This document shows, one piece after another, positions 34,213 to 63,472 of a DNA stretch of 64,000 nt (position 1 is the first letter of the stretch; each line of letters opens with the position of its first letter). A program made the position numbers and the translations under genes. Under the pieces are notes generated by a model that searched no databases, was not told the DNA's origin, and was given only the letters and a program-made list of their open reading frames with translations. This DNA comes from Pseudoxanthomonas sp. SL93 (GTDB lineage Bacteria > Pseudomonadota > Gammaproteobacteria > Xanthomonadales > Xanthomonadaceae): positions 868,001 to 932,000 of the forward strand of contig NZ_CP113065.1 in NCBI RefSeq assembly GCF_026625825.1. The letters are read 5' to 3'.

Positions 34213-34250
34213 GCGTAGATTTACTGGTGATCACCCGGTAGTTTCACGCT
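34213..34250 (+). promoter_or_regulatory. tandem GTA-N4-TAC operator upstream of exported-protein gene
   Basis: Two GTAGTTTTAC-like sites, GTAGATTTAC (34215-34224) and GTAGTTTCAC (34238-34247), with centres exactly 23 bp apart. This is the same spacing as the pairs at 38467-38512 and 42703-42742. They lie in the 275-bp gap between glk and the gene at 34450. I infer a LuxR/NarL-type response-regulator operator. Confidence 0.5.
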
Positions 34251-34449
34251 GGTCATTCAAGGTGCGCATCTTCAGTTTTGGATAGCAGGAAGGACATGAC
34301 ATCCCGGTTGCTTGATGATCAGGCGCAACCGTTTCATGCAACGAAGCGGGGCGGGAGGATTGAATCTAGTTCTAGGTCTGGAACACGATCCGTCGGGATC
34401 GGGACGCCTGTTTAAAAGAACGTTTCACCTTTACCTCGGAGGTCGAATC

Positions 34450-34857
34450 ATGCGCACGATCTTTCGTTTTCGCTTGTCGGTGAATGCAGCCAGGCTGGTC
34501 CTACTGCTGTTGCTGGGCGCGGCGATGCTGCCGCTGCAGGCCTCGCCCTCCAACAAGTGGCGCGTCCAGGCAAGCGGTACCGCCAAGGTGGCTGGCGAAG
34601 TGGAGCTGTCGTTCACGCCCAAGGGCGGCACGGCCAGCACGGTGGTCGTGCAGATCCCCGCGCGGACCGGCGAGAACCAGGCGGCACGGCTGATCCGCGA
34701 CGCGGTCATCGCCAGCTACGGCAAGTCGGTCTACCACACCGAAGTGGATGATGGCGAAGACGTGCTGGTGAAGGCGCGCGGAAGCACGCCGTCGTTCGAC
34801 CTCATCGTGACGCGCAACACCGCGGAGGGATTGCGGTTGAGCCTGGACAAGGAATAG
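34450..34857 (+). CDS. exported hypothetical protein
   Basis: 135-residue protein with a signal peptide (residues about 1-32, ending PLQASPS). The mature domain is small and beta-rich (KWRVQASGTAKVAGEVELSFTP...GKSVYHTEVDDGEDVLVKA). No family recognised. GGAGG lies seven bases before the ATG at 34450, so the longer upstream frame is rejected. A tandem GTA-N4-TAC element 200 bp upstream suggests control by the neighbouring two-component system. Confidence 0.68.
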   Translation: MRTIFRFRLSVNAARLVLLLLLGAAMLPLQASPSNKWRVQASGTAKVAGEVELSFTPKGGTASTVVVQIPARTGENQAARLIRDAVIASYGKSVYHTEVDDGEDVLVKARGSTPSFDLIVTRNTAEGLRLSLDKE

Positions 34858-34874
34858 GCCAGTTTCCAGCGCGC

Positions 34875-36437
34875 TCAGGCCTCGGCGGCCGACAGCGGAC
34901 ACCGGAGTTCCACCCGCGTACCGCCTTCCTCGCGATTGCGGATCTCCAGTCGCCCGCCAAGGCTGCGCGCCCGTTCTTCCATGCTCAACAGGCCCAAGCC
35001 CTGGCCGAACAAGCGTTGCCACTGGTCGGGCAGGCCCTTGCCGTTGTCATCGACCTGCAGCACCACGTCACCGTGCTCGCGGTACAGGCGGATGCGCACC
35101 CAGCTGGCCTGCGCGTGCGTGCCGACGTTGTGCAGCGCTTCCTGGGCCACGCGGAAGAGGTTGAGCTTGGCGTGGCACGACAGCGGCAGGTCCTCCACGC
35201 GACTGCAATCCATCTGAAGTCCGCCCTCGGTTCCCTGCGCCTGGCACAGCCCGATCAGCGACGCCGACAGGCTGGTGTAGCGCAGGATGCTGGGATGCAG
35301 TGCGTGGGAAATCCGCCGGATGTCGCCCGACACGTCCTGCACCTGCTGTTGAATGTCCTCCAGGCGCGCGCGCTCATCGGGTGCGGCCTCGCGCTTGAGC
35401 GCGCTCAGCTGGATGGAGACGGACGCCAGCGACTGGTTGATGTCGTCGTGCAGGTCCTGGGCGATGCGCGTGCGTTCGGCTTCCTGCACCACCAGCATGC
35501 GCCCGGTCAGCTCGCTGAGCCTCCGATAGGCGCGACTCAACGAGGCGCGGTCCGATGTCCGCTGCTCCACCAGCGTGGCCAGATACAGGTGTGTGATGGC
35601 CAGGCACGACGCCCACAGCTGTACCGACAGCGTCGTCATGCCGAGGTCCGGCCACACCATCGGGCCTATGCCGTGGCTGCAGAAATGCATGCACAGCAGG
35701 GTGATGCAGAGCAGGGTGAGCGAAGACACCACGGGGCCATTCACGATCAGGCACCAGATCAGCAGGATCGCCGGTGCCAGCATCAGTGGCGCATGGAAGG
35801 CGGCGGGAAGCACCTCGCTTGTCCAGGCGATGGAGAGCAACACCACCATAGCCACCAGCGCGAACAGGTTGATGGCCGATGGCCGCCAGCGGCGCTCCGG
35901 CTGCGCGCGTTGCAGCAACAGGCTCAGGAAGCCCGGCACCACCAGCAGATAGCTCAGGCTGTGTGCCAGCGCGACGTTGATCCAGCCCCCGATGTGGTGC
36001 GCCATGCCAAGTCGTGGCATCGCCTGGGTCACCCAGTACGCCGCCAGCACCGGCAACACCAGGCCCGCCACGACCACGAAGCGCAGGACGCCGCGGAAAT
36101 CCACCAGCGAAAACCTGAAATCCGTTCGCTTCAACACCAGGCTGGCCAGGACGACCAGCAGGAACACGCCGAGCAACACGACCACGACGCTACCGACCGG
36201 CGTGCCCAACAGCGCGAGGAAACCCGTCGTGCCGATGAGCGCCCCCGCCACGCAGGCCACCCAGCGCCGGCGGGGCAGCGCCAACAGCGCGCACATCAGC
36301 ACCGCGCCCGGCAGCCACAACATGTGCGCACGCGGCGCCGTCATCCAGAGCTCCACCGAGATGAGCTGGCCCAAAGCGGTGGCGGCGGCAACCAGCGCGC
36401 CGGTGAGCAGGTGCTGCGTGACTCGGTTCTGCGGCAT
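34875..36437 (-). CDS. NarX/UhpB-type sensor histidine kinase with MASE1-like membrane domain
   Basis: About 520-residue kinase. Residues about 10-300 contain roughly eight hydrophobic helices in a MASE1-like layout (LWLPGAVLMCALLALPRRRW near the second helix). A coiled linker is followed by the HisKA_3 phosphoacceptor box ERTRIAQDLHDDINQSLAS, then a HATPase_c domain (ALHNVGTHAQAS, DDNGKGL, GLGLLSMEERA). Partners of HisKA_3 kinases are LuxR/NarL-type regulators, and one lies 1.3 kb away (37782). The start is ATG 36437, or a TTG nine bases further upstream that fits GGGAGG better. Confidence 0.88.
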   Translation of the reverse strand: MPQNRVTQHLLTGALVAAATALGQLISVELWMTAPRAHMLWLPGAVLMCALLALPRRRWVACVAGALIGTTGFLALLGTPVGSVVVVLLGVFLLVVLASLVLKRTDFRFSLVDFRGVLRFVVVAGLVLPVLAAYWVTQAMPRLGMAHHIGGWINVALAHSLSYLLVVPGFLSLLLQRAQPERRWRPSAINLFALVAMVVLLSIAWTSEVLPAAFHAPLMLAPAILLIWCLIVNGPVVSSLTLLCITLLCMHFCSHGIGPMVWPDLGMTTLSVQLWASCLAITHLYLATLVEQRTSDRASLSRAYRRLSELTGRMLVVQEAERTRIAQDLHDDINQSLASVSIQLSALKREAAPDERARLEDIQQQVQDVSGDIRRISHALHPSILRYTSLSASLIGLCQAQGTEGGLQMDCSRVEDLPLSCHAKLNLFRVAQEALHNVGTHAQASWVRIRLYREHGDVVLQVDDNGKGLPDQWQRLFGQGLGLLSMEERARSLGGRLEIRNREEGGTRVELRCPLSAAEA

Positions 36438-36513
36438 TGCAGACAAAGCGGGCCTCCCTCTTTCCCTGGCTGACGCGCCGTTGCACCGCAGGCGGCGGCG
36501 TACGGAAGGCCGG

Positions 36514-36533
36514 CGTGTAAATCCGCTTACACG
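36514..36533. promoter_or_regulatory. inverted repeat in the kinase/AraC divergent region
   Basis: Perfect 7-6-7 inverted repeat CGTGTAA-ATCCGC-TTACACG, 77 bp upstream of the kinase start and 114 bp upstream of the AraC-regulator start. Its dyad symmetry and position fit an operator, perhaps of the AraC regulator. It is not the GTA-N4-TAC element seen elsewhere. Confidence 0.4.
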
Positions 36534-36646
36534 ACCATCCATCGGTTTCCCGACCTGTTCGCTTGATGTCACATTTACGGGCCCGCAAGATGGCGCGCTA
36601 TCCAGATTCCGACATCCCCTGTTTTCGTGGCCTGGAGACGTGATGC

Positions 36647-37621
36647 ATGGGTGCCTACCAGAGTGCGACCATCGAGGGGTTCGACGCCGAGGCGCTGCTC
36701 GGCGTGGTGCGCGATACGCGTTTCGATCAGCGCTTGCTGGCTCGGGGACATTTCAGGGCCCAGGTGCAGCGGGTGGTGTTCGATGACTTCAGCCTGGACT
36801 GTGGTGCCTATTCGCTGCCGGTATTCGCCAGCGGCACGTTCGGCCCGCGCGTGATGGCACTGGCGATCGCACTGGAGAGTCGCGAGGCCATGTGGATCAA
36901 CGGCCGTGCCGTACAGCAGGCGGAACTGATGGTCTTCGCGGAAGACCAGCCGGTGGATGTCAGGCCGTCGGCAGGCCTGTGGCAATGGGCCGTCGTGCTG
37001 GTATCGCGTGAGCGCCTGCAACAGGTGGCGCAGGCCTGCCTGGGAAGGGAACTGCCGCTTCCGGCGAGCGGCTGGAAGACGCACCCGCACTGGCGCGCGC
37101 AACACATCGCGACGAGCATCCGGCGGACGCTGCATGCCGCATCCGGATGGGATGCGGCGACGGCCACCGCGACCATGAGGACGGCGGGCGAGGGACTGCT
37201 TGCGAGTTGCGTGCGGGAAATGGGCGGCGCGATCGGTCCCACCGCATTGCCACGGCCCGTGGCGCATGGTCGCGACGCGGCTCGCCTCATCCGCCGCGCG
37301 GAGGCGCTTATCCGCGAGCACTACGGCACCGGCATGGCAAGCGAGCAGCTGTGCGCGGCGCTGGGTGTGGGGGAGCGTCAGGTCGAACGCCTGTTCCAGC
37401 AGGCCTACGGCATGACGCCACAGCGCTGGCAGCAGGTCGCACGACTGAACATGGCGCACCAGGCATTGCTGCATGCGCAGCCCAACGAGCACGTCACCGA
37501 TGTCGCCCTGCGCTTGGGCTTCGGCCACCTGGGACGTTTCTCGACCCGTTACCGGGACCTGTTCGGGGAAGCACCGCGCGATACGCTGCAGCGCGCCAGG
37601 AAAGTAACCGCTGTTACCTAA
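36647..37621 (+). CDS. AraC-family transcriptional regulator
   Basis: 324-residue regulator. The N-terminal half is a variable sensor domain without recognised ligand (MGAYQSATIEGFDAEALLGVV...). The C-terminal about 100 residues hold the double helix-turn-helix of AraC/XylS proteins: ARLIRRAEALIREHYGTGMASEQLCAALGVGERQVERLFQ, then VTDVALRLGFGHLGRFSTRYRDLFGEAPRDTL. Divergent from the sensor kinase and 160 bp upstream of a response-regulator gene, so part of a regulatory island. A second ATG lies just upstream and the exact start is uncertain. Confidence 0.88.
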   Translation: MGAYQSATIEGFDAEALLGVVRDTRFDQRLLARGHFRAQVQRVVFDDFSLDCGAYSLPVFASGTFGPRVMALAIALESREAMWINGRAVQQAELMVFAEDQPVDVRPSAGLWQWAVVLVSRERLQQVAQACLGRELPLPASGWKTHPHWRAQHIATSIRRTLHAASGWDAATATATMRTAGEGLLASCVREMGGAIGPTALPRPVAHGRDAARLIRRAEALIREHYGTGMASEQLCAALGVGERQVERLFQQAYGMTPQRWQQVARLNMAHQALLHAQPNEHVTDVALRLGFGHLGRFSTRYRDLFGEAPRDTLQRARKVTAVT

Positions 37622-37652
37622 TTGTCCTTGTCTGGGTCCGAACCTCTTGGTT

Positions 37653-37668
37653 CCAGTAGTTTTACTGG
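37653..37668. promoter_or_regulatory. perfect palindromic GTA-N4-TAC operator upstream of luxR-type gene
   Basis: Inverted repeat CCAGTA-GTTT-TACTGG, centre 121 bp upstream of the response-regulator start at 37782. The core AGTAGTTTTACT is identical to that of the site at 38467-38488. It probably mediates autoregulation. No partner site at 23 bp is recognisable here. Confidence 0.55.
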
Positions 37669-37781
37669 TCCATGCCAATCCCCCGCGCCTTTGTCACACC
37701 GAATGAAGGTTTGCTCCGTATCATCTGGTGCCGCAGGGGGAGACGTGCGGGGTTTCCTGCGGACGATCGGGGAGGTCGCAG

Positions 37782-38462
37782 ATGGATGCTGTCGAATACC
37801 CATACGCAGAGCGGCAATGTGTCCGCTTGCTTGTTGCCGACGACCATATCCTGGTCGCGCAAGGCATAGAACAATTGCTGCGCCCCTGCTTCGGACACGT
37901 CCGGCTCGTCAACTCGGGGGAGGCGTTGATGGATGCGCTGATGCACCACACCTACGACGTGGTGATCACCGACGTCAGCATGGACGGCATGAGCGGCATC
38001 GAGGCGATGCAGCAGACGCGCCGGTTAGGGTGCACAGTACCTTTCATCTTCCTCACCATGCACGGGGGCGCCGCCATCGCCGCCGAGGCGATCCGTTCCG
38101 GTGCCAGTGGCTACGTGCTCAAGAGCTCTGCCGGGGAAGATCTGCTGCATGCAATCCGGGAAGTACTGGCGGGGCGGACTTATGTGGCGTCGAGTGTCGC
38201 CCTGAGGGCTATCCACGGCATGGAAGGCCAGCCGGGTAGCGGCCTGACCGACAAACAGAGGCGAATCCTGGAATACGTTGGCAAGGGGCTACGCTCCAAG
38301 CAGATCGCCTATGAGCTGGGCATCTCCGTACGCACGGTCGAGTCGCACAAGTACACGATCATGCAGGAGCTGGGGGTCCACGGCACGGTCGAACTGGTGC
38401 GCAGGGCGGAAGAGCTCGGCCTGCTGGATCTGCGTACCCTTCGCACGGCGTCCGTGGCGTGA
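37782..38462 (+). CDS. LuxR/NarL-type two-component response regulator
   Basis: 226-residue DNA-binding regulator. The receiver domain (13-130) has the acidic pocket VADDH and phospho-acceptor Asp64 (VVITDVSMDG). The C-terminal GerE-type helix-turn-helix is LTDKQRRILEYVGKGLRSKQIAYELGISVRTVESH. The start ATG 37782 follows GGGAGG at six bases, and the frame extends 18 codons upstream without a better site. The nearby HisKA_3 kinase (34875-36437) is the natural partner. Palindromes with the same core occur upstream of this gene and of the next, so I infer it binds GTA-N4-TAC. Confidence 0.9.
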   Translation: MDAVEYPYAERQCVRLLVADDHILVAQGIEQLLRPCFGHVRLVNSGEALMDALMHHTYDVVITDVSMDGMSGIEAMQQTRRLGCTVPFIFLTMHGGAAIAAEAIRSGASGYVLKSSAGEDLLHAIREVLAGRTYVASSVALRAIHGMEGQPGSGLTDKQRRILEYVGKGLRSKQIAYELGISVRTVESHKYTIMQELGVHGTVELVRRAEELGLLDLRTLRTASVA

Positions 38463-38466
38463 CCGC

Positions 38467-38512
38467 CGGCAAGTAGTTTTACTTGCCGCGCCTAGGTTGT
38501 TTTCCGCTAGGC
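38467..38512. promoter_or_regulatory. tandem GTA-N4-TAC operator upstream of receiver-only gene
   Basis: The first site is a perfect inverted repeat CGGCAAGTA-GTTT-TACTTGCCG (38467-38488). The second is CTAGGTTGTTTTCC inside a GCCTAG...CTAGGC inverted repeat (38490-38512). Centres are 23 bp apart. The second site matches 13 of 14 bases of the element at 42704-42717. The pair lies 51 bp before the receiver gene start. Confidence 0.6.
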
Positions 38513-38562
38513 AACGCCGCATCCGGCGCGCAACATCGGTTCAGGCGGAGGCGACCTGTGCC

Positions 38563-38988
38563 ATGAGACGTGCGCGCATCCTGTTGGCGGAAGACAGCCC
38601 GGCCGTGGCCAGGCAGCTGCGCCTGCTGCTGGCCAACGTGTTCGACGTGAGCGGTTTCGTGGATGACGGTATTGCACTGCGACAGGCATTCGAGCACCTG
38701 CGCCCGGATGTACTGGTGTCCGACATCTCGATGCCGGGCATGGATGGCCTGCAGGCCATCGAACGACTGCAAGAGGAGTTCGGCCCGTTGCACATCGTGT
38801 TCGTCACCGTCCACGCGGATGAGGCCCTGGTCGCGCGCGCCATGGCGCTGGGGCCGTGCGGTTATGTGCTCAAGCCGGATGCGGGGGAAGACCTCATCGC
38901 CGCCGTGCACAGCGTGTTGGCGGGCAAACCCTACGTATCCTCCTCCATCGCCAAGGCAATGGAGGAACGCGGACAACCAGCGCCTTGA
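38563..38988 (+). CDS. single-domain response regulator (receiver only)
   Basis: 141-residue CheY-like protein. The acidic pocket ILLAEDS, Asp54 (VLVSDISMPGMDG), Thr (VFVTVHADEA) and Lys (YVLKPDAGEDL) are all present, but no output domain follows. C-terminal residues resemble the linker of NarL-type regulators (HSVLAGKPYVSSSIAKAM), suggesting descent from a LuxR-type regulator that lost its helix-turn-helix. It may act as a phosphate sink for the neighbouring kinase. Directly downstream of the LuxR-type regulator, with its own operator. Confidence 0.85.
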   Translation: MRRARILLAEDSPAVARQLRLLLANVFDVSGFVDDGIALRQAFEHLRPDVLVSDISMPGMDGLQAIERLQEEFGPLHIVFVTVHADEALVARAMALGPCGYVLKPDAGEDLIAAVHSVLAGKPYVSSSIAKAMEERGQPAP

Positions 38989-39072
38989 GGCGAGGGGCTG
39001 AACGAAGGTCGAGAACCGCTTTTATGCCAGCCACGCAGTCCTGACAGAACCGAACCCGCAGCGAGGTCATCA

Positions 39073-40056
39073 ATGGAATGCACACGCACGCGCCGCTATT
39101 CGCCAAGGCTCACCCATTTCCTTGCCGGTGGCCTGCTGACTTCGCTGGCGCTGGGCTGCCAGACGGCATGGGCCACGGAAGGCGCCATGGGTCGCCCCAT
39201 CACCGGCATGCAGATCACGCCTTACGCCGGCGTCATCCCGCCCACGCCCGGGATGCAGTGGCAGGTGGGTTATGTGTATTACGACGGCAAGGTCGAAGGT
39301 ACGCGCGAGGTACCGATTGCCGGCCAGGTCTCGTTGGGGCTGGAAGCCGACGTCAACCTGTACCTGGCCGGCGGCGTCTACATCTGGCCGACGGCGGAAG
39401 GCCGCTGGAATTTCGCTTCCATGGTCACGGTTCCCTACATCGACGTGGAAGTAGGCGCCACGCTGGACGTGGGCGGTGCCAGCGCCAGGCGCAGCCAGAG
39501 CGCCGGCAACCTGTTCGACCTGTACTTCGCACCGGTCATCGCCAGTTTCCATATCGACCAGGTGCGCCATCTCTCCTTCGGCCTCTACTTGTACGCGCCC
39601 ACGGCCGACTACGACCCCGACCGCATCGCCAACCCCGGGCTCAACGTCTGGACCGCGTCGCCCACCGTCAACTACACGCAGCTGTTCCAGCAGGGCACGC
39701 TGGAGTTCAGCGTGCAGGGCGCTTTGGACTGGTACAGCGAGAACAAGGACACCGACTACAAGAACGGAGTGGTGTGGCGCAGCGAGGTGCTGCTGATCAA
39801 GCGCACGGCCAGCGGCTGGGGCATCGGCGCGGTCGGCGGTTGGATCCAGCAGCTGGAAGACGATTCCGGCCCCACCGCAGACCGGCTGGGGGGATTCAAG
39901 GGCCGCGCCTTCGGTGTCGGGCCCGTGGTGACGTACGGCAAGAAGTGGCAGGACGGCGAACACGTCGACGTGACCTTCCGCCTGGTGGATGAGTTCTCGG
40001 TCAAGAACCGGTTCGAAGGCGTGCCGGTCAGCCTGATGGTGAGCTTCGGATTCTGA
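39073..40056 (+). CDS. outer-membrane protein of the phenol-MetA degradation family
   Basis: 327-residue secreted beta-barrel. A signal peptide runs to about residue 35 (LALGCQTAWAT), followed by alternating strands (MQWQVGYVYYDGKVEG, LSLGLEADVNLYLAGG) and a terminal Phe (VSLMVSFGF) as in outer-membrane barrels. It resembles the Phenol_MetA_deg/SphA-like transporter family, whose substrate role is loosely defined. It begins 84 bp after the receiver gene, which may place it in the same transcription unit. Confidence 0.78.
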   Translation: MECTRTRRYSPRLTHFLAGGLLTSLALGCQTAWATEGAMGRPITGMQITPYAGVIPPTPGMQWQVGYVYYDGKVEGTREVPIAGQVSLGLEADVNLYLAGGVYIWPTAEGRWNFASMVTVPYIDVEVGATLDVGGASARRSQSAGNLFDLYFAPVIASFHIDQVRHLSFGLYLYAPTADYDPDRIANPGLNVWTASPTVNYTQLFQQGTLEFSVQGALDWYSENKDTDYKNGVVWRSEVLLIKRTASGWGIGAVGGWIQQLEDDSGPTADRLGGFKGRAFGVGPVVTYGKKWQDGEHVDVTFRLVDEFSVKNRFEGVPVSLMVSFGF

Positions 40057-40060
40057 TCAT

Positions 40061-40096
40061 CCGGTCCTGCATGCCCGTTGGCGCATGCACGACCGG
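40061..40096 (+). terminator. long hairpin after the outer-membrane gene
   Basis: Stem CCGGTC-C-TGCATGC paired with GCATGCA-C-GACCGG (one C/C mismatch), with an 8-base loop, starting four bases after the stop. No T-run follows. It could be an intrinsic attenuator or mRNA-stability element before the DUF2092 gene. Confidence 0.45.
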
Positions 40097-40133
40097 CCCT
40101 TGAAGCGGGCCGTGTGCCCAGGAGGCAAGTGCG

Positions 40134-40946
40134 ATGAACGCAAGGCAATGGTTACCTCTCCGGCCCGCGCTGGTGATCTCGATCGCGTTGGCGTGCCCCG
40201 CCATGGCGGCGGAGCCGCCAGCTGAAAGTGTGGCCGCGCCGCAGGGCGCTGCGGTGGAACGCGACCCTGCCGCACTGGCGGCGCTGGACAGGATGGGCAG
40301 CGCGCTGCGCGGGCTGAGGCAGTTCAGCCTGACCTCGGACACCAGTACCGAGGTCGTGCTCGACACCGGCCAGAAGATCGAGCTTGACGGCACGGTGACC
40401 TACAAGGCAGCACGCCCGACCAGCCTGTACGTGGAGATCAAGAGCGACCGCAAGCTGCGCGAGCTTTATTTCGATGCGGGCAAGCTGACATTGCATGCGC
40501 CACGGCTGAAGTTCTATGCCAGCACCGACGTCAAGGCGAAGACACTCGGCGAGTTGGCCATCAATGCCGCGACCGAGTACGGCATCGATTTCCCGATGGC
40601 CGACATGTTCTTCTGGGGTACCGAGTATGCGCCGAAGGACCTGATCCAGTCCGCCATCTACGTGGGCGCAGCCACCCTGGACGGAGAGCGGGCGGACCAG
40701 TACGCGTTCACCCAGGAGGACGTGGAATGGCAGGTCTGGATCTCGCAGGAGACGTCGCTGCCGAAGAAGCTGGTCATCACCAGCCTGGATGATCCCGCGC
40801 TGCCGCAGTACCGCGCGCGGTTGCACTGGGATACGCGCACGCCGGTATCGGCATCCGTGTTCAAGTTCACGCCGCCCGCGGGATCGAGCCAGATCAAGCT
40901 GGTGCCCGCCGGAACAGCGGTGGCCAGCGTCGGACAGGAGAAATGA
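40134..40946 (+). CDS. DUF2092 periplasmic protein
   Basis: 270-residue exported protein with signal peptide ending CPAMAAEP. The mature part has the DUF2092 pattern (LRQFSLTSDTSTEVVLDTGQKIELDGTVTYKAARPTSLYVEIKSDRK..RELYFDAGKLTLHAPRLKFYA) and a LolA/LppX-like curved-sheet character. This fold class binds hydrophobic ligands, but no function is established. The stop overlaps the next start by four bases. Confidence 0.8.
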   Translation: MNARQWLPLRPALVISIALACPAMAAEPPAESVAAPQGAAVERDPAALAALDRMGSALRGLRQFSLTSDTSTEVVLDTGQKIELDGTVTYKAARPTSLYVEIKSDRKLRELYFDAGKLTLHAPRLKFYASTDVKAKTLGELAINAATEYGIDFPMADMFFWGTEYAPKDLIQSAIYVGAATLDGERADQYAFTQEDVEWQVWISQETSLPKKLVITSLDDPALPQYRARLHWDTRTPVSASVFKFTPPAGSSQIKLVPAGTAVASVGQEK

Positions 40947-41530
40947 TCATGCAGACCTCACTGAAGATTCCGTCGCTGCTGCTGGCCTGCGTGGTCGGTG
41001 CGGCGATGCTGGTACCTGCCGATATTGCCGAAGCCGCGCGCGGCGGCGGGCATGGCGGGGGCGCGCGTGCGGGCGCCAAGTCAAGCGTCAACCGTCCGGC
41101 CGCGGGCGCGCACGGCGGCGGACACGCGGCGAACCGGAGTGCAGGCGCCAACCGCGACGGCAATGCCAACGCCAACCGTAGTGCGAACGTCAACCGCAAC
41201 CAGAACATCAATCGCAACACCAACGTCAACCGGAACACCAACGTCAACCGAAACACCAACATCAACGTGGACCGCGACATCGACATCGACGTCGACCACC
41301 ACGGCGGCTGGAACGACTGGGACGACCATCCCTTCGCCACCGCGGCGGCGGTGACCGCCGGTGTCGCGATCACCTCGGCGGTGATCGGCTCGATCGTGTA
41401 CTCCGTGCCGCCGAGCTGCGTCACCACCGTGGTCAACGGCATCGCGTACCAGCAGTGCGGTTCCACCTGGTACGAGCCTCGCTATTCGGGAACGACGGTG
41501 CAGTACGTCGTCATCAATCCTCCGGGCTAA
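40943..41530 (+). CDS. Asn-rich repeat exported protein
   Basis: 195-residue exported protein. After the signal peptide (ending IAEAARG) comes a Gly/His/Ala-rich stretch, then a low-complexity segment of NxNRNT-type hexapeptides (residues about 72-110, e.g. NVNRNTNVNRNTN) leading into Asp-Ile repeats (DRDIDIDVD). A Gly-Ser-rich hydrophobic helix and a Cys-containing C-terminus (SCVTTVVNGIAYQQCGSTWY) follow. The terminal motif is shared by many small envelope proteins of unknown role. Coupled to the DUF2092 gene. Confidence 0.75.
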   Translation: MIMQTSLKIPSLLLACVVGAAMLVPADIAEAARGGGHGGGARAGAKSSVNRPAAGAHGGGHAANRSAGANRDGNANANRSANVNRNQNINRNTNVNRNTNVNRNTNINVDRDIDIDVDHHGGWNDWDDHPFATAAAVTAGVAITSAVIGSIVYSVPPSCVTTVVNGIAYQQCGSTWYEPRYSGTTVQYVVINPPG

Positions 41531-41532
41531 CG

Positions 41533-42672
41533 GTGAAGGCGTCGCGGGCCACGTGCCTGCCGGCATGCCTGGCGATGCCCTGGCCGGCCACGGCCGGGGG
41601 ATCGGAAACCGACGTGGCCAGCCGCCAGGCGATGGATGACGCCTCGGGGATGGAGCAGGGCGCTGCGCGGAAGGACCGGACGAGCTTTGTCGTATTGCCC
41701 ATTCCCCAATCCAACCCGGCCCTCGGCAGCGGGCTGGTGTTGGCGGGCGTGGCTTTCTACCAGCCGGCCGGCAGTCCGCGCCCCTGGATGACCGGGGCCG
41801 CCGTGCTGTGGACCGACAACGGCAGCCGCGGCGGCGGCGTGTTCCAGAAGGCGTACCTGCGCGGCGATCTCTATCGCGTGTCCGCCTTTGCTGGCGGGGC
41901 CAACCTCAACGTCAGGTTCTACGGCATCGGTGCGGGTGAGGCGAACCGCGATGTTTCCGTACCCATCGAGCAGAGCGGCCGCGCCGTGCAGCTGGATGGC
42001 TTGCGACGCCTGCGGCCCAACCTCTACGCCGGCCTGCGCCTGCGTGCCGCCCAGGTGGAGACGTCGCTGAGGTTCGAAGGCGAAGCGTCAGAAGAGTTCG
42101 ACCTGGAATCACTGCAGCTCGATACACGCATAGGCGGGCCCGGCCTGCTGCTGCAGTACGACTCGCGCGACAGCGAGATGTATCCGTTGACCGGCCGTTA
42201 CGCCAACCTGCAGCTGCAGTGGAACCTGGCGTCCTTCGGCAGCGACCTGCGCTACGACCGGCAGGAACTCAGCTACAACCATTACCGCAGCCTGTCGCCA
42301 AAAGGCGTACTGGCCCTGCGCGGCGCCCTGTGCCGGGCCAGCGATGGCGCCCCGTTCTTCGATATCTGCCTGTTCGGTGCCTCCAACGACCTGCGCGGCT
42401 ACGAGACGGGCCAGTACCGGGACCGCGCGATGGCGGCCGTGCAGGCCGAGTACCGGTGGCAGTTCGCACGGCGCTGGGGCGCCGTGTTCTTTGCGGGCGT
42501 CGGGGGCGTGGCGCCGAGCATGAGCGACCTTGCCGATTCCCGAGCCCTGCCGTCCGGCGGGATGGGACTGCGCTTCAAGGCCTCGACGGCGTATAACGTC
42601 AACGTCAGCCTGGATTACGCCGTCGGCCGCGACACCGACGCGGTCTACGTCTACATCGGCGAGTCGTTCTGA
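41533..42672 (+). CDS. BamA/TamA-fold outer-membrane protein (surface-antigen barrel)
   Basis: 379-residue protein. The C-terminal half carries the Omp85 barrel signature (LLLQYDSRDSEMYPLTGRYANLQLQWNL, GASNDLRGYETGQYRDRAMAAVQAEYRWQF) and ends with Phe. No POTRA domains are evident, so it is a barrel-only member like those linked to small exported operons. GTG at 41533, two bases after the preceding stop, is taken as start. The N-terminal leader is not an ideal signal peptide, so the start could be elsewhere. Confidence 0.78.
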   Translation: MKASRATCLPACLAMPWPATAGGSETDVASRQAMDDASGMEQGAARKDRTSFVVLPIPQSNPALGSGLVLAGVAFYQPAGSPRPWMTGAAVLWTDNGSRGGGVFQKAYLRGDLYRVSAFAGGANLNVRFYGIGAGEANRDVSVPIEQSGRAVQLDGLRRLRPNLYAGLRLRAAQVETSLRFEGEASEEFDLESLQLDTRIGGPGLLLQYDSRDSEMYPLTGRYANLQLQWNLASFGSDLRYDRQELSYNHYRSLSPKGVLALRGALCRASDGAPFFDICLFGASNDLRGYETGQYRDRAMAAVQAEYRWQFARRWGAVFFAGVGGVAPSMSDLADSRALPSGGMGLRFKASTAYNVNVSLDYAVGRDTDAVYVYIGESF

Positions 42673-42702
42673 AACCCGTCGCAGTCCTTCGTGCAGCACT
42701 GC

Positions 42703-42742
42703 TCTAGGTAGTTTTCCCCAACCCGCACCCGTAGTTCTTCGC
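42703..42742 (+). promoter_or_regulatory. tandem GTA-N4-TAC-like operator upstream of DUF4136 lipoprotein
   Basis: Two degenerate sites, CTAGGTAGTTTTCC (42704-42717) and GTAGTTCTTC (42731-42740), centres 23 bp apart, with the second 140 bp upstream of the lipoprotein start. The first matches the site at 38492-38505 in 13 of 14 bases. Same architecture as at 34213 and 38467. Confidence 0.5.
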
Positions 42743-42755
42743 ATTACCGGACGTA

Positions 42756-42780
42756 CATGCCCGTTTATCGTGCGGGCATG
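42756..42780. promoter_or_regulatory. perfect hairpin/inverted repeat in the DUF4136 upstream region
   Basis: 8-bp perfect arms CATGCCCG/CGGGCATG separated by nine bases, immediately downstream of the tandem operator and 96 bp before the start codon. It could be a second protein-binding site or a 5'-UTR hairpin. Confidence 0.35.
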
Positions 42781-42875: not shown

Positions 42876-43412
42876 ATGAACCGATTGTCTTTGGGAGGGC
42901 TGGTCCTGCTGCTGGCAGGCTGCGCATCCACGCCCACGGTCACCACGGACCACGACCCGGCGGCGAACTTCGCCTCCTACCGCACCTACAGCTGGGCGGC
43001 CAAGCCGCAGGCCGGCTCGCCACTGGTGCAGCAGCGCATCGTGGACGGCATCGATGCACGGCTGCGCGCGAAAGGCTGGACCCAGGCGCCCAACGGACAG
43101 GTGGCGATCGCGGCGCACGTGGTCGCCAGCCAGAAGCAGACCATCGACACGTTCTACAGCGGCACCGGCATGGGCGGGTGGGGGTATCGCGGTGGCTGGC
43201 GCGGCGGCATGGGCACCGCGACCAGTACGGTGCGCACCTACGATGTCGGCACGCTGATCGTCGACATGTTCGACGCCAGCACCCAGCAGGCCGTCTGGCG
43301 TGGCAGTGCGAGCAGCACCGTGCCGAGCTCACCCGAGAAGGTCAACCAGACCGTCGATGCGGCGCTGGACAAGATGTTCGCCGGTTTCCCGCCGGGAACG
43401 GCATCGCCCTGA
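42876..43412 (+). CDS. DUF4136 lipoprotein
   Basis: 178-residue lipoprotein with lipobox LLLAGC (acylated Cys about residue 16). The mature part matches DUF4136: FASYRTYSWAAKP, DARLRAKGWTQ, and a Gly/Trp-rich loop (GMGGWGYRGGWRGGMG) before the final sheet VGTLIVDMFDASTQQAVWRG. Function unknown. AGGAGAG precedes the ATG at 42876. It opens a co-directional run of exported genes to 50.4 kb. Confidence 0.85.
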   Translation: MNRLSLGGLVLLLAGCASTPTVTTDHDPAANFASYRTYSWAAKPQAGSPLVQQRIVDGIDARLRAKGWTQAPNGQVAIAAHVVASQKQTIDTFYSGTGMGGWGYRGGWRGGMGTATSTVRTYDVGTLIVDMFDASTQQAVWRGSASSTVPSSPEKVNQTVDAALDKMFAGFPPGTASP

Positions 43413-63462: not shown

Positions 63463-63472
63463 GTAGAAATAC
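63463..63472 (-). promoter_or_regulatory. GTA-N4-TAC site near the 7-TM kinase
   Basis: GTAGAAATAC on the plus strand. Read on the minus strand with its flank it is CTAGGTATTTCTACT, which agrees with the CTAGGTAGTTTTCC sites at 38492 and 42704. It has no clear partner at 23 bp; a weak GTGGAATAGC lies at 63486. Confidence 0.4.

Follow-up and report, generated by a model that had tools for sequence, protein, structure and literature searches.

The locus examined here raises the question of which protein recognises a set of regularly paired short DNA sites and which genes are controlled through them. In a stretch of 64,000 nucleotides from Pseudoxanthomonas sp. SL93 (contig NZ_CP113065.1, positions 868,001 to 932,000), referred to as the window, three pairs of decamers resembling GTAGTTTTAC surround the gene of a response regulator that we call RR1, and the genes downstream of the pairs code for a small putative exported protein, a receiver protein (RR2) and a DUF4136 protein. 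The pairing, the spacing, the co-occurrence with RR1, the recurring target families and a -10-like hexamer at a fixed distance were all observed in the sequences. The pairs belong to a genuine, conserved operator system of a known mechanistic kind, and their binder is very probably RR1. We consider it likely that RR1, a regulator of the NarL/FixJ family, would bind as two tandem dimers abutting the -35 region and activate an envelope regulon including RR2, which carries no output domain. The elements on which the argument rests are the following.

34215..34247, + strand, candidate operator pair upstream of the gene of the small putative exported protein: GTAGATTTAC (34215-34224) and GTAGTTTCAC (34238-34247)
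38473..38505, + strand, candidate RR2 operator pair: distal GTAGTTTTAC (38473-38482) and proximal GTTGTTTTCC (38496-38505)
42708..42740, + strand, candidate operator pair of the DUF4136 gene: GTAGTTTTCC (42708-42717) and GTAGTTCTTC (42731-42740)
37782..38462, + strand, RR1, response regulator with receiver and LuxR-type helix-turn-helix (HTH) domain, the proposed binder
38563..38988, + strand, RR2, receiver without output domain (Pfam Response_reg only), first gene under the 38473 pair

Site pairs in the window and in the genome

An earlier sequence-only reading had reported three GTAGTTTTAC-like pairs at exactly 23 bp, and these are indeed present, the start-to-start distance being 23 bp in all three (34215/34238, 38473/38496, 42708/42731). 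A pair was defined as two sites, each with at most 2 mismatches to GTAGTTTTAC, spaced by 10-60 bp, and the whole window was compared with 150 dinucleotide-preserving shuffles. The shuffles returned a mean of 0.007 pairs at any spacing in that range versus the 3 observed, and none of them contained two pairs sharing one spacing. Mismatches were unevenly distributed within the pairs (1+1 at 34215, 0+2 at 38473, 1+2 at 42708), and the strict form GTA-N4-TAC occurred in only 2 of the 6 pair members. The window holds 8 copies of GTA-N4-TAC versus 1.17 expected, a count reached in 0 of 100 shuffles, and only 2 of these copies are pair members. Since single near-matches are not rare, GTAGTTTTAC with at most 1 mismatch having 32 places in the genome, below the 70 of a reversed control pattern, the unusual feature is the pairing and not the single site, and the abundance of single sites was dropped as evidence. 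Both RR2 operator sites also lie within longer inverted repeats (window 38465-38518; CGGCAAGTA/TACTTGCCG and GCCTAG/CTAGGC), whose stems are not kept in relatives.

A sequence-only profile was trained on 18 pairs, mainly those between RR1 and RR2, and gave E values of 4.3e-7, 4.1e-4 and 6.3e-4 for the pairs of RR2, the DUF4136 gene and the small exported protein, all three being in the training set. At E<=10 it retrieved four places in the 3.85-Mb genome (150 of 1117 candidates scored), namely the three window pairs and a place adjacent to a DUF1254 gene; as all four belong to the training set, the result argues for the absence of others and is not an independent discovery. The fourth place, at about base 498,400, comprises two GTAGTTCTAC sites in opposite orientations 23 bp apart and, 142 bp beyond, a second pair spaced by 24 bp, both located between a MetA-like gene and a DUF1254/DUF1214 gene that point away from each other. 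The window or the loci L001-L020 contain 29 of the 32 places with at most 1 mismatch; with at most 2 mismatches there are 536 places, of which the analysis covered 100. In L001-L020, pairs with at most 3 mismatches in all numbered one at 23 bp and three at 24 bp (L001, L018, L019). The 24-bp site pairs at L018 1569 and L019 1540 are absent among the profile places at E<=10.

Conservation of the pair at RR1 loci

Two sets of RR1 loci were compared. The first contained 80 loci, out of 568 relatives, from named genomes (L021-L031 close, 69 distant), and the second derived from a search of 198 genomes of the family; L025, L026 and L030 are identical to L107, L110 and L114, so that three loci are common to both sets. 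A strong and a weaker site 23 bp apart were found between RR1 and RR2 in 9 of the 11 close named loci (L021-L028, L030) and in 14 of the 23 RR1 loci of the family genomes (L101-L112, L114, L150). Counted by genome, the RR1-RR2 pair occurred in 14 of the 21 family genomes with an RR1 homologue, including 13 of 13 at an identity of at least 57%; among the named loci, too, each RR1 reaching 57% has the pair. No RR1-RR2 pair of this type was present in L031, L113, L115-L119 and L151-L153.

Allowing one site at most 1 mismatch and the pair at most 4 in all, 23 bp was the spacing of 18 of 24 pairs in the window, L001 and L021-L031, and of 3 of 37 in the distant named loci (69 loci, 1.03 Mb), where no pair had 3 mismatches or fewer. 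Among the pairs of the family-genome RR1 loci, 15 of 20 had the 23-bp spacing. Both groups (18/24; 15/20) show the arrangement of a tandem-dimer class-II layout, with at least two sites separated by some two turns of the helix. The sequence-only reading had made its case depend on the frequency of this spacing relative to others across the genome: around RR1 and its targets 23 bp was by far the commonest, so that in the loci examined the refuting outcome was not seen.

The cluster of kinase, RR1 and RR2 genes is kept in relatives, most of which then carry genes for a sulfatase, a sulfatase-modifying factor, DUF1622, MetA-like and DUF2092 proteins; in the window, the sulfatase, sulfatase-modifying factor and DUF1622 genes are not found between RR2 and the MetA-like gene. 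A DUF4136 homologue is preceded by a 23-bp pair also in L023 and L024, and the small exported protein gene (34450) has no relative among the loci compared. One of the close loci, L021 (JAHREJ010000048.1), is titled Bacillus subtilis SK7B5 and contains a Stenotrophomonas-like cluster, the record being probably mislabelled or contaminated. More distant RR1 homologues show a GTAGATTTGC site, followed 60-63 bp on by GTAGTTGTAC in 3 of 4 (L113 528 and 591, L116 508 and 569, L151 534 and 594; L115 528 alone), a different layout that perhaps marks a sister regulon.

Promoter geometry

The distance between the proximal site and a -10-like hexamer, recognised by the core bases of the -10 element (A as its second and T as its sixth letter), was evaluated in 35 promoters of seven types. 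RR2 accounted for 20 of them, an unnamed reverse-strand gene for 8 and DUF4136 genes for 3, while the small exported protein, MetA-like (L001), DUF1254 and DUF1622 genes contributed one each. In 35 of 35 promoters the hexamer followed the proximal site at a distance of 25, 26 or 27 bp (chance 7.4%), and blocks of three distances not touching 25-27 contained it in 0 to 2 of 35. The proposed elements of the window are listed below.

34273..34278, + strand, proposed -10 CAGTTT of the small exported protein promoter, 25 bp after the proximal site
38531..38536, + strand, proposed -10 CAACAT of the RR2 promoter, 25 bp after the proximal site
42766..42771, + strand, proposed -10 TATCGT of the DUF4136 promoter, 25 bp after the proximal site

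Taking the hexamer as -12 to -7, the proximal site would be centred at -42.5 to -44.5 and the distal one 23 bp further up, so that the predicted hexamer position would set the proximal site next to the -35 region of a sigma70-type promoter in 35 of 35 cases. Among twelve further loci the hexamer fitted 7 (L130, L142, L143, L146, L176, L181, and L147 on the minus strand only). In the promoters of the reverse-strand gene the upstream partner site is weak. This gene lies behind RR2 in eight relatives and is preceded by an invariant GTATTTTTAC site and a -10 element, TATGCT or CATGTT (L021 9628, L022 10421, L023 6230, L024 10410, L025 10387, L026 5485, L027 4216, L028 10425); no Pfam family was found for its product (L028 tested).

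Co-occurrence of the motif with RR1 and putative unlinked targets

The same 198 family genomes were scanned with the profile, taking matches at E<=0.3 under stricter filters, and searched for RR1 homologues at E<=1e-40. Profile matches were found in 17 genomes and RR1 homologues in 21; both were present in 14, RR1 only in 7, and a weak match only in 3 (G063, G109, G152). The motif thus occurred in 14 of the 21 genomes with RR1 versus 3 of the 177 without, and by RR1 identity in 13 of 13 genomes at 57% or more and in 1 of 8 at 41-54% (G021). The Fisher values for co-occurrence and identity split, 7e-14 and 3e-17, ignore relatedness and the training on RR1-RR2 pairs.

Genomes without RR1 contributed 3 of the 47 profile matches; in genomes with RR1, 23 matches lay at most about 10 kb from its gene and 21 lay farther off or on another contig. 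Outside the SL93 genome there were 20 of these 21, none of them used in training; they fell in 10 of the 13 other genomes with RR1 at 54% identity or more, versus 3/177 (Fisher 6e-12). Loci were fetched for 9 of the 20. A DUF2092 gene lies downstream of the motif in L137-L139 (three related genomes; family tested in L138), and the other fetched sites precede genes for a sulfatase (L142), DUF1622 (L143), DUF1254/DUF1214 (L146), DUF3300 (L130) and PAP2 (L149) proteins and one unclear gene (L147). Beside the RR1 of G021 a pair is followed by a DUF1622 gene (L148), and the site of L144 falls at the end of a kinase gene, 83 bp upstream of the MetA-like gene of G039.

DUF1254 homologues were in addition fetched by protein, counting only sites outside genes. 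Where the genome has an RR1 of 54% identity or more, 5 of 12 loci contained a site or pair, compared with 0 of 12 loci from RR1-free genomes and 0 of 6 from genomes with only more distant RR1. The five consisted of 23-bp pairs in L154 (SL93 itself), L176 and L181 and of lone sites in L170 and L183.

Genes of the locus

The remaining genes are given below.

34450..34857, + strand, small putative exported protein, no Pfam family, export judged by eye, target of the 34215 pair
34875..36437, - strand, histidine kinase (Pfam HisKA_3 and HATPase_c), probable partner of RR1
36647..37621, + strand, AraC-family regulator (Pfam)
39073..42672, + strand, genes behind RR2: MetA-like (Phenol_MetA_deg), DUF2092, unnamed, Omp85-like
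42876..43412, + strand, DUF4136 gene (Pfam), target of the 42708 pair
37656..37665, + strand, single exact GTAGTTTTAC upstream of RR1, role unclear

RR1 scored above the Pfam cut-off with Response_reg (83.6 bits) and GerE (60.2 bits), the combination of receiver and LuxR-type HTH that defines the NarL/FixJ family. The acidic pair, phospho-acceptor aspartate and lysine of RR2 are conserved in 20 of 20 relatives, whose length of 129-155 residues leaves no room for an output domain. RR2 and the genes behind it, up to the Omp85-like one, may form one operon, as suggested by their common strand and short gaps.

The kinase adjoins RR1 here and in relatives. Its description as NarX-type in the sequence-only reading did not hold beyond a likeness of domains: HisKA_3 and HATPase_c are present, and the score against the NCBIfam NarX equivalog was 98.9 bits versus a cut-off of 578. 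Support was also lacking for the two single sites as regulon members. Around the one at 37656 no partner-like sequence was found at 22-24 bp in either direction, and both strands lack a -10-like hexamer at a distance of 25-27 bp; that at 63463 shows 2 mismatches to GTAGTTTTAC, no partner and no -10 at the usual distance. The AraC-family gene beside RR1 has an in-frame stop in two matches, G032:C1:1063208-1064158 and G125:C21:26540-27490.

Identity of the binder and rival explanations

RR1 is proposed as the binder because its family, the size and symmetry of the sites and its co-occurrence with the motif all fit. The regulator at 37782 is retained from the two candidates named by the sequence-only reading, and the kinase at 34875 is no longer a candidate. 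The LuxR-type regulon with tandem operators put forward there gained support from the 23-bp spacing kept across genera, the joint occurrence of RR1 and motif, the recurring target families and the fixed -10 distance.

Several observations weigh against this assignment. In L029 (RR1 identity 55%) the strong site has no clear companion 23 bp away, the SL93 genome also carries the 24-bp pairs of L001, L018 and L019, and one unlinked pair (L130) is spaced by 22 bp. Genomes with RR1 at 41-54% identity are mostly without the motif (1/8), although L116 and L151 share recognition-helix residues; the pair-bearing RR1 proteins do not form one clade. RR1-RR2 pairs made up most of the profile's training set, and the Fisher values take no account of relatedness; 10 of the 20 unlinked matches are weak (E 0.05-0.29), the other 10 being at E<0.05. 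The 25-27 bp distance was picked after inspection of the data, and among the twelve further loci the hexamer is at 24 bp in L149 and absent in L137, L138, L139 and L144; L137-L139 represent one promoter in related genomes, and in L144 both strands lack a -10 at 25-27 bp.

Another regulator might bind the pairs, either the AraC neighbour or a different LuxR-type protein, with RR1 as a mere neighbour. The AraC gene does adjoin RR1 here and in several relatives, and the recognition helix alone fails to separate RR1 proteins with the pair from those without: S(V/I)RTxESHKYxxMQ is common to the former and is also present in L116 and L151, which have no pair, and the helix gained no support as an explanation of the motif distribution. 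However, when RR1 and the AraC protein were compared with that distribution, the motif tracked the presence of RR1 across the 198 genomes, whereas 9 of the 14 genomes containing both RR1 and the motif gave no AraC match at E<=1e-20; the AraC protein was rejected as binder and a different regulator appears quite unlikely. Slightly less improbable, and still unlikely, is that the pairs are RR1 operators whose main effect is to repress, with the proximal dimer standing in the way of RNA polymerase at -35. The end of the proximal site near the -35 region fits blocking as well as class-II activation, but the weak -10 elements and the site in place of a good -35 hexamer would be usual for activated promoters, and BvgA and DevR, which have the same layout, activate (PMC7250471, PMC3029386).

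The sites might instead be parts of hairpins (terminators, REP-like or RNA elements), as the 38473 site forms a perfect inverted repeat of 9 bp around a loop of 4 bases. We regard this as highly improbable: the long stem is lost in relatives (e.g. L025, L026, L104, L105, L108) while core and spacing are kept, and the profile gives only four genome places at E<=10 with 150 of 1117 candidates scored. The non-conserved stem led us to reject the hairpin or terminator. An RccR-type site was likewise rejected, since the window sites lack the ACTACA half of the TGTAGT/ACTACA palindrome.

Proposed mechanism and known counterparts

Activation by RR1 would proceed as follows. The kinase at 34875 (HisKA_3) probably phosphorylates RR1, and each GTAGTTTTAC-like decamer, with its symmetrical GTA-N4-TAC core, is predicted to take one head-to-head RR1 dimer. 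Two dimers 23 bp apart, about two helical turns, would be placed with the proximal one centred near -42.5 beside the -35 region and the distal one near -65.5. Together they would bring RNA polymerase to promoters whose -10 elements are weak (mostly CAnnnT or TAnnnT), RR1 acting as a class-II activator. One site of the pair is usually stronger, and occupancy of the weaker one therefore probably depends on cooperativity. The predicted targets are RR2 with the envelope genes that follow it, the small putative exported protein and the DUF4136 gene, together with the far-off divergent MetA-like and DUF1254 genes. RR2, made under RR1 control, may damp the system as a phosphate sink, a role guessed from its kept active-site residues and short length. 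We infer RR1 binding, phosphorylation, activation, cooperativity and the role of RR2 from these sequence comparisons.

Among the closest counterparts is BvgA of Bordetella, also a NarL-family regulator. Its head-to-head dimers occupy one DNA face of Pfha and Pptx at regular spacing, the nearest abutting -35; strong and weak sites are mixed, and three to six dimers are spaced by 22 bp (PMC7250471). The regular spacing, the nearest site abutting -35 and the mixture of strong and weak sites are shared, whereas the spacing here is 23 bp with two sites, and site sequence and targets differ. DevR/DosR of Mycobacterium, of the NarL subfamily, likewise has close-packed sites, the proximal one overlapping -35 and a weak neighbour being filled cooperatively (PMC3029386). 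Close packing and a proximal site at -35 are common to both systems; site, signal and targets are different, and cooperativity, shown for DevR, is here a prediction. RccR of Pseudomonas belongs to the RpiR family. Its site at the aceE promoter contains the decamer GTAGTTTTAC, and the system is marked by a TGTAGT/ACTACA palindrome, two sites 68 bp apart and carbon metabolism targets (PMC5489143). The palindrome centre, the 68-bp site distance and the carbon-metabolism targets set it apart from the present system.

A literature search covering the decamer, the combinations of DUF families and regulator, FixJ sites and NarL-family tandem sites returned no paper on this regulon, mostly at the level of titles and abstract openings. 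Within the literature so reached, the layout is of a known type and the gene set is without a published description. A wider proposal, which we advance only tentatively, is an undescribed two-component regulon of the Lysobacteraceae, in which a NarL-family regulator with a strict 23-bp double operator at about -42.5/-65.5 might control exported and envelope proteins that have no assigned role (sulfatase, DUF1622, MetA-like, DUF2092, DUF4136, DUF1254, DUF3300). Its most constant target would then be a receiver without output domain, related to the regulator's own and serving as a built-in phosphate sink.

The predicted regulon would place several uncharacterised protein families under one regulator and supply a promoter code open to testing, and a shared role of these families could therefore be sought through the inducing signal. 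With the rule of two decamers at 23 bp and a -10 element at 25-27 bp, further members of the regulon can be predicted in related genomes. Should RR2 truly be a phosphate sink under RR1 control, the system would represent a simple, conserved feedback design.

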